Of a DNA stretch of 64,000 nt, positions 9,674-48,093 are shown one piece after another. The stretch is taken from the NCBI RefSeq assembly GCF_001570565.1, contig NZ_BBXE01000016.1:1-64000 (forward strand). The letters run 5' to 3'. This stretch comes from Herbidospora yilanensis. GTDB taxonomy: Bacteria; Actinomycetota; Actinomycetes; Streptosporangiales; Streptosporangiaceae. The translations under genes were made by a program, and so were the position numbers. Below the pieces are notes generated by a model. It was not told the origin of the DNA. It made no database searches and saw nothing but the letters and a program-made list of their open reading frames with translations. Each line of letters starts with the position of its first letter. Within the stretch, counting starts at the first letter, position 1.

Positions 9674-11363
9674 GCATCCGGGGCAGCCTCGGCGGCTTGA
9701 AGAACCCTTCGGCGATGGCCGAGGCGATGCCCACCCTGACGAGGTCGCGGGTGTCCTCGTACGCCAGGAAGCGGGGCACCCACTCAGGGTGATACTTCAC
9801 GTTGGCCCGGTAGAGCGCTTCGAGCTGCCACCAGCGTGAGAGGAACAACAAGGTACGCCGCCAGGCCCGGATCACCGGGCCGGCGCCCATCCTCGCGCCC
9901 TCCTCGAAGGCCGACCGGAAGACCGCGAAGTTGAGCGAGATCCGTTCGACCCCGAGCCAGCCGGCGTTCCTGACGAGCCCGGCGACCATGAACTCGACCA
10001 GGCCGTTCTCCGCAGTCCGGTCCCGGCGCATCAGGTCGAGCGAGAGCCCGCGGTCGCCCCACGGCACGAACGACAACAACGCCGCCTCGTCGCCTTCCTT
10101 GCTGAGGCTCTCGACCAGCACGCAGCCCGCGTCGAGCGGGTCGCCGAGACGGCCGAGGGCCATCGAGAACCCGCGTTCGGTCTCGGTGTCGCGCCAGGCG
10201 TCGGCGCGTTCGCTGATCAGCCGCATCTCCTCGGGGGCGATGTCGCCGTGGCGGCGCACCCGGAGCTGGTAGCCGGCGCGCTCGACCCGGTTGGCGGCCT
10301 GGCGGACGCCGCGCATCTCCCGGCCCTGGAGGCTGAACCTCTTGACCTCGATGACGGCCTCGTCGCCGAGTTCGAGCACCTTCAGGCCGGCCCGCTGGTA
10401 GGCCCTGGCCCCTTCGGCGCCGCAGCCGATGGCGGCCAGGGTCCAGCCGAACTCGCGGGCCTGCCCGGTCCACGCCCTGATCGCGTGGTCCCACGCCTCG
10501 GGATCGCCGAGCGGGTCGCCGCCCGCGAGGGTCACCCCGTTGACCACCCGGAACGACACCGCGGCCTTGCCGCTCGGCGAGAAGATGACGCTGCGGTCGC
10601 GCCGGGTGGCGAAGTAGGCCAGCGAGTCGCGTTCGCCCAGCAGCCCCCGGAGCCGCTCCTCGTCGCCGGGCGCGAGCACGGCCCGCTGCCGCTGCGACCG
10701 GAACAGCACCCCGAACGCCACCAGCAGCGCGACGGCGCTCATCAGCCCGATCAGGAACGCGACCCACACCGGCGGATGGCCGTAGTCCTCGACCTCGATC
10801 ACCCCGCCGAGCACCCGGCTGAGCACCCAGATCGCGCGGGCCGACCGTGTCAGGTCGCCCGGAAAGAAGATCGTCAGCAGGAAGCCCACGACGTAGGACG
10901 CCCCGAGCAGCGCGATGAGCGTGGCCGTGGCCTTGCGGAACGACGCGGGCTGCGTCTTGGCGAAGAACTCGCCCCGCCCCCACCACAGGTAGCCGATCAG
11001 GATCAGCGCGATCGCCCCGGAGACCAGTATCTCGCTGAGCAGCCGTCCCTGGTCGGGTATCTCGGCCAGCGGCGCGATCGCCACCAGCGGTGTCGAGACC
11101 ACGCTGAGCAGCACCGAGAACGCCAGCAACAGCACCAGCAACCGCCAGGCCACCCGCTTGCGCCGCGCCAGCGCCCCGGCGAGCAGCCCGAGGAAGGCGG
11201 CGTAGGCCAGGTTGGGCGTCAGCGGGACGGCGTAGTCGTCGACCAGCGCGGTCAGCGGCCGCGCCACCTCCCGCAGCGGCGGCACGATGGCGATGGCCGC
11301 CGAGTAGACCGCCAGCACGGTCAGCACGATGGACGCCACCCGCGGCACGTCACCCCGCGCCAT
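9603..11363 (-). CDS. membrane protein with C-terminal DUF2156 lysyltransferase domain (MprF/LysX-like)
   Basis: 586 residues from the ATG at 11363. About seven transmembrane helices (roughly residues 8-225) precede a cytoplasmic double-GNAT DUF2156 domain (about 260-560): FSPSGKAAVSFRVVNG, the GGDPLGDPEAWDHAI motif, GWTLAAIGC, MRGVRQAANRVERAGY, LVESLSKEGDEAALLSF and the terminal segment with YHPEWVPRFLAYED. This arrangement matches enzymes that transfer an amino acid, usually lysine, from tRNA to phosphatidylglycerol and change envelope charge. The fused lysyl-tRNA synthetase of mycobacterial LysX is absent. The last ~25 residues are Pro/Ser/Arg-rich and overlap the convergent gene. Overlaps the rhomboid-like gene upstream by 14 bp. 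Confidence 0.85.
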   Translation of the reverse strand: MARGDVPRVASIVLTVLAVYSAAIAIVPPLREVARPLTALVDDYAVPLTPNLAYAAFLGLLAGALARRKRVAWRLLVLLLAFSVLLSVVSTPLVAIAPLAEIPDQGRLLSEILVSGAIALILIGYLWWGRGEFFAKTQPASFRKATATLIALLGASYVVGFLLTIFFPGDLTRSARAIWVLSRVLGGVIEVEDYGHPPVWVAFLIGLMSAVALLVAFGVLFRSQRQRAVLAPGDEERLRGLLGERDSLAYFATRRDRSVIFSPSGKAAVSFRVVNGVTLAGGDPLGDPEAWDHAIRAWTGQAREFGWTLAAIGCGAEGARAYQRAGLKVLELGDEAVIEVKRFSLQGREMRGVRQAANRVERAGYQLRVRRHGDIAPEEMRLISERADAWRDTETERGFSMALGRLGDPLDAGCVLVESLSKEGDEAALLSFVPWGDRGLSLDLMRRDRTAENGLVEFMVAGLVRNAGWLGVERISLNFAVFRSAFEEGARMGAGPVIRAWRRTLLFLSRWWQLEALYRANVKYHPEWVPRFLAYEDTRDLVRVGIASAIAEGFFKPPRLPRMLSPGRTPTASSAAPGNDASRPGR

Positions 11364-12228
11364 CGTTTCCCCCCAAGACCGGCGACGGAGGGGACATACC
11401 CCATTTCCCCAGGTCAAAAGCGGGTGGTGTACGCGGCGGCGCGACCCGCAGGCAGATCAGCGCGGCCACCAGACCGCAGACCGTGGCCAGCAGATGCCCC
11501 AGATCCCAGACGGTACGGCTGATCACGATCGGCGCCCCCACGCCCAGCGTCAGCGCGATCACCCCCACGGCCCGCCCCCGCCCCCGCATCAGGATCACGG
11601 CCGCCATTACCCCGGCGACCATGATGTAACTGACCCCGACGTCGGTGGAGACGGCCAGCCGCGCGGGAGCCAGCCCGTTGACGATCGCGTGATACTCCAC
11701 CAAGGCGGTCAGCAACGACCCGAACACGTGCCCGCAGAGCCCGATCACGATGATCCGCGGAGTGCCGTACCGCTGCTCCGCCCATGCGACGACGGTCGCG
11801 TAAACGACCACGTAGAAGGTCAGAAACGCGCCCCGATCCGAGACCCAGAGCGCACTGTCGGCCAGCACCACGAGCGGATTGTCGGACAACCGCACCAGAT
11901 TGGTGCTCTGAAACGTCGTCAACACGTCGATCAGATCCGGCGGCCCCGTCCGCTGCAGAACCGTCGAACTCGTGAACACCACGATGTAGGTGAACGTGGC
12001 CGGCGCCGACAACACCCACTGATGCAGAAACCGCGTGTAGGGCGACCCACCCCGCACCACCCGCCGAGCCCTCCGCGACCACCGCGAAACCCCCCGGAGG
12101 AGATACCAACCCAAGGTGACCAGCACGAACACCAAACAAAAGATCACACGCCACCCCGGCTTCCCCCCGTGGTCGGAGACATCTCCAACCCTCAGTCGGA
12201 TACGCCGGCCAGACCCGGTCTTTACCAT
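11350..12228 (-). CDS. rhomboid-like multi-pass membrane protein
   Basis: 292 residues from the ATG at 12228; earlier starts would read through the repeat element and are rejected. Six to seven hydrophobic segments are visible. A GVSYIMVAG motif (near residue 200) and a later WDLGHLLATVCGL (near residue 245) occupy the positions of the serine and histidine of rhomboid proteases, but the canonical GxSG is GVSY, so activity is uncertain. The actinobacterial rhomboid-like family of this kind is common and poorly characterised. It overlaps the start of the lysyltransferase-like gene by 14 bp, indicating co-translation and perhaps a shared envelope role. Confidence 0.7.
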   Translation of the reverse strand: MVKTGSGRRIRLRVGDVSDHGGKPGWRVIFCLVFVLVTLGWYLLRGVSRWSRRARRVVRGGSPYTRFLHQWVLSAPATFTYIVVFTSSTVLQRTGPPDLIDVLTTFQSTNLVRLSDNPLVVLADSALWVSDRGAFLTFYVVVYATVVAWAEQRYGTPRIIVIGLCGHVFGSLLTALVEYHAIVNGLAPARLAVSTDVGVSYIMVAGVMAAVILMRGRGRAVGVIALTLGVGAPIVISRTVWDLGHLLATVCGLVAALICLRVAPPRTPPAFDLGKWGMSPPSPVLGGNDGAG

Positions 12229-12235
12229 CTGACTT

Positions 12236-12390
12236 GGTCGTGAGGCCGGCCAGTCGTGGCTTGGCCGCGTCCGGGCCTTCCCTCGTCGCTCCGGTTCGCT
12301 TCGCTCTCCTGCGCTCCTCAGTCCAGGCCCGGACGCGGCCAAGCCCGCCGCGCCGGAGGCGCGGCCATCAAACAGGCGCGGCCATCAAAC
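12236..12390. repeat. intergenic repeat copy A: 48-bp core between 20-bp inverted repeats
   Basis: Structure: outer left arm 12236-12257, inverted repeat 12258-12277, core 12278-12325, inverted repeat 12326-12345 (perfect complement of the first), outer right arm 12346-12390, which ends in two tandem 17-bp units (12357-12373, 12374-12390). A second copy lies at 47934-48093. There the outer arms are exchanged and inverted while the core reads in the same direction, so core and arms have opposite relative orientation in the two copies. Copy A lies between two divergent genes, 10 bp from one start codon and 12 bp from the other, so it must overlap their promoters. Confidence 0.85.
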
Positions 12391-12402
12391 ACAGAGGTTG
12401 TC

Positions 12403-12903
12403 ATGTTCCCACTCACCGCTGTCGTCGCCGGGCTGGCGTTGCTGCTGATGGGCAATATCGCCGGGCTGTTCTACGCCTATTCGGTGTCGGTCATCCCGGG
12501 GCTCAACGCCTCGCGGGCCGACCATGCCGTCGCCGCGATGCGGCAGATCAACGTCAAGATCCTGAACCCGGTCTTCTTCGCCTCCTTCATCGGCGCGCCT
12601 CTGGTCGCGGCCGTCGCCGGGGTACTGCTCCTCGGTTCGGGCCAGCGTGGGGCCGCGATGTTCTTCTTCGCCGCGACGGCCGTCTACGTGCTGGGCGCGT
12701 TCGTGCCGACGGCGATCGTGAACGTCCCGTTGAACAACGCGCTGCTGGCGGCGGGGGAGGTCGCCGATCCGGCGCGGGCCGCGCAGGTCTGGGCCGAGTT
12801 CGCGCCGAAGTGGGCGCCGTGGAACCACCTGCGCACGGTGGCGAGCTGCGCCGGGCTGCTGCTGACGGGCGCCGCCCTGTTCGTCTGGGCGGGCAACCGC
12901 TGA
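12403..12903 (+). CDS. DUF1772-family small membrane protein
   Basis: 166 residues from the ATG at 12403, preceded by an AGAGG Shine-Dalgarno. Four transmembrane helices and the family hallmarks are visible: the first helix ending in GLFYAYSVSVIPGL, the QINVKILNPVFFASFIGAP motif, the NVPLNNAL segment before the third loop, and W-x-x-W-N-H-L-R-T before the last helix. DUF1772 proteins are often called anthrone-oxygenase-like, but most family members have no known role. The repeat element ends 12 bp before the start codon, so its state could affect expression. Confidence 0.85.
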   Translation: MFPLTAVVAGLALLLMGNIAGLFYAYSVSVIPGLNASRADHAVAAMRQINVKILNPVFFASFIGAPLVAAVAGVLLLGSGQRGAAMFFFAATAVYVLGAFVPTAIVNVPLNNALLAAGEVADPARAAQVWAEFAPKWAPWNHLRTVASCAGLLLTGAALFVWAGNR

Positions 12904-47933: not shown

Positions 47934-48093
47934 GTCTGATGGCCGCGCCTGTTTGATGGCCGCGCCTCCGGCGCGGCGGGCTTGGCCGCCTTCAGTCCGG
48001 GCCTTCCCTCGTCGCTCCGGTTCGCTTCGCTCTCCTGCGCTCCTCAGTCCAGGCCCGGACGCGGCCAAGCCACGACTGGCCGGCCTCACGACC
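47934..48093. repeat. intergenic repeat copy B, core flipped relative to copy A
   Basis: Left arm 47934-47978 is the reverse complement of the right arm of copy A and includes the two 17-bp units (47934-47950 with one mismatch, 47951-47967). Inverted repeat 47979-48003 carries a 5-bp insertion; core 48004-48051 matches the copy A core in the same direction; inverted repeat 48052-48071 is perfect; right arm 48072-48093 is the reverse complement of the left arm of copy A. It sits between convergent genes. 48094-48193 shows nothing further. Confidence 0.85.

Follow-up and report, generated by a model that had tools for sequence, protein, structure and literature searches.

An inverted loop between perfect arms in a dispersed repeat of Herbidospora yilanensis is most likely a template-switch scar

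When a short segment lies inverted between inverted repeats, close to the start of a gene, is it a genetic switch or the trace of a mutation? The question is raised by a repeat at positions 12236–12390 of the window (the whole 64,000-nt stretch of Herbidospora yilanensis DNA that was analysed), here called copy A, and by a relative, copy B, 36 kb off on the opposite strand. The parts of the two copies are as follows.

12236–12257, plus strand: outer left box of copy A, in common with copy B (direct reading, BLAST and orthologue alignment)
12258–12278, plus strand: 5′ arm of hairpin 1 of copy A, 21 nt
12279–12324, minus strand: 46-nt loop (core) of copy A, inverted relative to the arms, with the usual family reading on the minus strand
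12325–12345, plus strand: 3′ arm of hairpin 1 of copy A, exact reverse complement of the 5′ arm, with the bulge of the orthologues missing
12347–12365, plus strand: hairpin 2 of copy A, 8-bp stem, marker of the element's usual orientation
12357–12390, plus strand: two 17-nt units in tandem in copy A, formed by the end of hairpin 2 plus the tail
47934–48093, minus strand: copy B, same family in the usual orientation, 3′ arm bulged; scored by model R1 at 140.2 bits over 48077–47945

Copy B has the same parts as copy A, but its core lies the opposite way relative to the arms. That the core is inverted between the copies when they are aligned by their arms, as the initial annotation held, is borne out by direct reading, in which both copies have the same central 40 nt of the core on the plus strand (12282–12321 and 48008–48047), and by the BLAST strands: nucleotides 1–155 of copy A align with 47934–48093 on the minus strand (80%), and nucleotides 23–110, the core plus inner arms, give a separate alignment with 47979–48071 on the plus strand (95%). 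The 20-bp repeats and 48-bp core said to be shared by the pair are present, but in copy A they measure 21 bp and 46 nt, and the repeats differ between the copies. In copy A they form a perfect 21-bp pair (12258–12278 and 12325–12345, separated by 46 nt); in copy B they are 77% complementary over 26 nt, the pairing being imperfect because of about five extra bases in the 3′ arm. RNA folds are more stable than shuffles for both copies (z −6.3 and −5.1).

Both copies are members of a dispersed two-hairpin repeat, whose parts are, in order, a left box, hairpin 1, hairpin 2 and a tail, for example ATCAAACAG. The loop of hairpin 1 is 46 nt long, conserved and rich in purines, and in usual copies the 3′ arm of this hairpin is interrupted by a bulge of about 5 nt. 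The likeness of the two copies is not due to chance: the core pattern has 14 matches (up to 3 mismatches) in the species' own 7.85-Mb genome, a draft assembly of 67 contigs, and a reversed-pattern control has none there. Across seven Herbidospora genomes there are 80 core matches (14, 12, 8, 10, 5, 14 and 17), and a degenerate core pattern, run against genomes of named species, returned 46 stretches, from six Herbidospora species and one Virgisporangium. A covariance model built from 43 copies (alignment A2) has hits at an E-value of 0.01 or better in 83 of the 150 family genomes sampled, and in 39 of the 68 genera that they represent; no more than 22 candidates were scored in any one genome and the E-values are approximate, which means that isolated weak hits could have arisen by chance. 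Ten model alignments were examined, of which seven come from three other genera; in these ten, the stems vary and the loop is largely kept. Among the 43 sequences, both sides have changed in 22 of the 27 modelled pairs and 96.2% of cells are paired, a level reached by none of 500 shuffles (best slid register, 44.1% paired), the tested structure being itself derived from such copies.

By crude gene calls, the copies are largely intergenic. An old site lies before a gene that we take, from the reading MGIRKYKPT, to be rplB; it is occupied in six of the seven Herbidospora genomes (L011, L158, L163, L171, L182 and L207), and its arms differ among genomes yet still pair. Two copies (L005 and L202) are without the left arm, and at one locus (L206:1171–1418, in G006) hairpin 1 and hairpin 2 occur twice in direct tandem, with starts 115 bp apart. 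Mobilization by RAYT proteins was considered and rejected, as a Y1_Tnp domain (PF01797) was present in one of the seven genomes and absent from this one. In a check for target-site duplication and MITE character, the two genomes without the element at the site of copy A (G003 and G004) proved too diverged there to show a duplication. Rfam, run on six loci and the copy A region, placed no family at gathering score on the repeat; two microRNA hits fell far below cut-off, one of them over the copy A hairpin (18 versus 100 bits), and a tRNA match in L003 lay off the repeat. Distant-mode searches with E-values up to 1e-5 gave no match to copy A in a plasmid collection or to copy B in a phage collection. 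No title naming this repeat was found in the literature searched, which consisted mainly of open-access articles.

Against this background, the orientation of copy A is exceptional. With matches oriented by the core, 79 rows read by eye and L007 read separately (also usual), 79 of the 80 matches in the seven genomes have the usual orientation, and copy A is the sole flipped one. All 80 were then re-checked automatically, and hairpin 2 was found on its usual side in 70. Three others (L006, L166 and one copy in L206) have a usual hairpin 2 beside an equal or longer hairpin, unrelated or neighbouring, on the other side; four (L156, L164, L184 and L194) have an imperfect hairpin 2 and two (one copy in L170, and L200) a damaged one, all six usual by eye. 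None of the 79 is flipped with its bulge kept, and copy A alone among the 80 has an uninterrupted stem of at least 12 bp, one of 21 bp. At the orthologous site of copy A, G001, G002, G005 and G006 carry the element unflipped with the bulge present, and G003 and G004 are without it. Since all four orthologous elements are unflipped and copy A is unique among the 80, the flip is, as judged from these comparisons, a derived state. The initial annotation would have counted as refuting a core absent from the rest of the genome, or one fixed orientation elsewhere combined with reads that never show the flip, and had suggested a genome-wide count by orientation; the core does recur, and the count puts the other 13 copies of this genome all in one orientation, which supplies one half of the second refuting condition. 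Whole-element inversion or re-insertion at copy A is rejected because hairpin 2, the left box and both flanks are unmoved.

Across the family, a pattern for flipped copies (CTCAGTCC, 15–45 nt, hairpin 2) gave 2 matches in 341 genomes, and its counterpart for usual copies gave 168 matches in 24 genomes, although three of these matches, in G266, look unrelated; both patterns require a near-fixed hairpin 2, so many copies are missed. A second copy in which core and arms disagree lies in another genus (L247:1420–1560, in G110; compare L261 and L264), with its bulge kept. At the same site in G033 the whole element lies the other way round, and in G148 a remnant has its outer parts also the other way round and its stem-loop gone. 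Because the outer parts of the G110 copy are turned relative to the flanks while its core agrees with that of G033, at least two steps seem needed, a more complex history than that of copy A; as the bulge is kept, this copy does not repeat the copy A signature.

How copy A arose was addressed by enumerating breakpoints under two template switches and under reciprocal inversion, with each orthologue taken as the ancestor. The two-switch distance to copy A is 0 from G005, G002 and G001, whereas reciprocal inversion at its best is still 5, 5 and 7 edits away, respectively. From G006 the two-switch model leaves 25 edits and inversion 15; this orthologue fits neither model because of its own changes, an inserted base and a damaged hairpin 2. 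For three of the four orthologues, then, an ancestor prefix, a reverse-complement copy and an ancestor suffix together equal copy A, the segment is flanked by inverted repeats (the 21-bp arms), and the direction of change is known from relatives. The entry point can lie anywhere within 10 nt, and the exit within 11 nt (G005 or G002) or 2 nt (G001).

In the proposed event, DNA synthesis, either replication or repair synthesis, would have reached the 5′ arm. The nascent strand would then have switched to the 3′ arm through the 10-nt inverted identity, copying would have proceeded backwards across the loop and then the 5′ arm, and a return switch would have followed through the outer-stem identity (11 nt if the ancestor is G005 or G002). 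A single event of this kind would invert the loop and replace the bulged 3′ arm with one that pairs perfectly with the 5′ arm; with the roughly 5-nt bulge gone from one of them, the arms of copy A are fully complementary. This is the gain over inversion: one event accounts for both the inverted loop and the vanished bulge. Precedents are found in the yeast gene REG2, for which an excerpt of PMC8604942 describes a spacer inversion together with arm homogenization, and in rRNA hairpins, for which the portion of PMC8794818 consulted gives loop inversions, one of them from Actinobacteria, with inverted-loop changes very rare there. We therefore consider it quite probable, from the alignments, that a two-step template switch made copy A from an unflipped ancestor, and we infer one event, occurring during DNA synthesis. 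Copy A is most likely a mutation scar, and in this assembly the flip is a fixed state.

Several points weigh against a template switch. The model has two more free breakpoints than plain inversion, and plain inversion plus a loss of 5–7 bases fits the same three orthologues. As an ancestor, G006 fits badly and fits the two-switch model worse. The only other flipped copy found, that of G110, keeps its bulge and has flanks that show further inversion, and the case for copy A rests on one assembly.

The promoter-switch reading depends on the genes beside copy A, which are the following.

11350–12147, minus strand: left neighbour, rhomboid-like protein, with its probable start at 12147, not 12228
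12403–12903, plus strand: right neighbour, anthrone-oxygenase-like protein (PF08592)

Both start codons had been placed within about 10 bp of copy A. This stands for the right gene, whose ATG at 12403 is 12 bp past copy A and is ATG in all seven Herbidospora genomes, but not for the left. There, none of the six relatives has the ATG at 12228: each reads ACG at that point, in five of them in a different frame from the probable start. The start codon that the seven genomes have in common, a GTG or an ATG, falls at 12147 in the alignment, some 90 bp away from copy A. The seven genes around copy A (8.8–17.7 kb) contain no recombinase domain, and a search of 12100–12500 for a consensus sigma-70 promoter gave none, a weak test in such an organism.

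Other histories could be imagined for the same locus. Usual sequencing reads are longer than 21 bp, the full length of the perfect repeat, and a fold-back chimera arising in assembly or amplification would need to dominate the consensus; such an artefact is thus very unlikely, even though the genome is a draft of 67 contigs and copy A its sole flipped copy. A phase-variable switch, in which a recombinase flips the loop and so alters transcription of both neighbours, would suit the perfect inverted repeats of copy A and its place just upstream of the conserved start codon at 12403. Nevertheless, 79 of 80 copies share one orientation, the four orthologues are all unflipped with imperfect repeats, the seven neighbouring genes are without a recombinase domain, the left start codon is not adjacent and the sigma-70 consensus was not found; the small invertible switch first suggested is not supported, and we regard it as highly improbable.

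The remaining alternatives concern the mechanism of inversion itself. Reciprocal recombination between the arms might have inverted the loop, with the bulge deleted in a separate event. The best inversion is 5 edits off for G005 and G002, which is the bulge length, and the part of PMC12928735 consulted describes plastid small inversions between inverted repeats of 11–24 bp as hairpins undergoing homologous recombination. But two events would be needed in one lineage, the other 79 core copies are without an uninterrupted stem of at least 12 bp, and the genus holds no flipped copy with its bulge retained; we consider this course unlikely. It is somewhat less improbable, if still a minority view, that microhomology-mediated break-induced replication, rather than template switching at a fork, made the inversion. 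Break repair of this kind has been proposed, in the excerpted text of PMC8755829, for human–chimpanzee microinversions flanked by inverted repeats, and its end product could look identical; that text invokes short, imperfect flanking repeats, however, against identities of 10–11 nt at copy A. It corresponds to the repair-synthesis branch of the preferred explanation, so that the likelihoods we assign to the two overlap. Template switching at a hairpin, the other origin initially suggested, is supported: one two-switch event is exact from three of the four orthologues and explains the lost bulge.

What the loop does in usual copies bears on what the flip may have cost. In the inner helix, G-U outnumbers A-C by 15 to 2 (70 clean copies; 8 of 78, unclean, and copy A left out), and in all helices of alignment A2 by 18 to 8 (p 0.08), with 1 to 6 in the outer helix. 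Because the copies are related, the excess is suggestive only; in the inner helix it would suggest that the purine-loop strand is under selection as RNA. An RNA role is likely: judged by the covariation of its stems, the repeat, where functional, probably acts as a folded RNA element. RNA from copy A would carry the complementary, pyrimidine-rich loop, and copy A has therefore probably lost whatever function the loop serves. Whether the repeat amounts to an undescribed class of structured RNA, present in 39 of 68 genera, with compensatory stems, a template-switched loop and a serine-recombinase attachment site, is a broader reading that we put forward tentatively, as slightly short of an even prospect.

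The attachment site in that description comes from a mobile element that inserts into the loop. In the seven genomes, all six matches to the right-end sequence CGAAGGTAACTCTAAGAAGG (up to 2 mismatches) adjoin the loop and 3′ part of a repeat, and all five matches to the left-end sequence CTGGACAAACGCACCTTCGTAG (up to 3 mismatches) follow the left half of one. The element ends lie 10.0 kb apart in G000 (contig C23, 105854 and 115860) and 13.1 kb apart in G006 (contig C24), and the G000 junctions share AC within CTGG-AC-TGAGG. The loci of the element are L005:2–1468 (minus strand) with L214 and L251/L272, and also L213 with L271. A large serine recombinase gene starts beside the right end in G000 and G006, two of the six right ends; Pfam (Resolvase, Recombinase) was run on the G000 protein, and the G006 protein was recognized by its near-identical sequence. 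No recombinase gene of at least 220 aa is listed beside the right ends in L211, L212 and L215, and none was recognized beside the sixth, in L216 (neighbouring locus L036). Because the element ends abut repeat halves and AC is common to the G000 junctions, the loop serves as an attachment site for a serine-recombinase element. The G000 recombinase is encoded on another contig than copy A, in the element that inserts into the repeat loop. A serine recombinase thus meets this repeat by insertion; the evidence concerns integration, and none of it concerns loop inversion.

At copy A, a single exact reconstruction, for which the direction of change is known, links the inversion of a 46-nt loop to the loss of the difference between the arms, and many unflipped copies of the same bacterial repeat stand as natural controls. 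More generally, when the core enclosed by inverted repeats is found flipped, this does not have to reflect a genetic switch.

In invertible promoter switches of the fim and hin types, a short segment close to the start of a gene is framed by inverted repeats, and copy A resembles them in this geometry. It differs in that 79 of 80 copies hold one orientation, no recombinase lies among the seven neighbours and the repeats were made perfect by the event itself. Like REP elements and other dispersed bacterial stem-loop repeats, the family is multicopy, hairpin-forming and largely intergenic, but six of the seven genomes have no RAYT-type Y1 transposase, and the repeat has a long conserved loop and two hairpins. 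Hairpin geometry and exact inversion are shared with human and chimpanzee microinversions, 17–33 nt in the part of PMC8755829 consulted, and with plastid small inversions, given as 5–50 bp in the corresponding part of PMC12928735, a range that includes the 46 nt of copy A; here, the arm difference has also been removed, and many unflipped copies serve for comparison. The closest likeness is to short template-switch (quasipalindrome-associated) mutations, which, as far as the excerpts of PMC8604942 and PMC8794818 describe them, share the inverted repeats, the exact reverse-complement copy and the joining of arm homogenization with spacer inversion in one event. Inversions in those excerpts span 2–5 bp in yeast and typically 4, up to 7–8 nt, in rRNA, whereas in copy A 46 nt are inverted, within a dispersed bacterial repeat.
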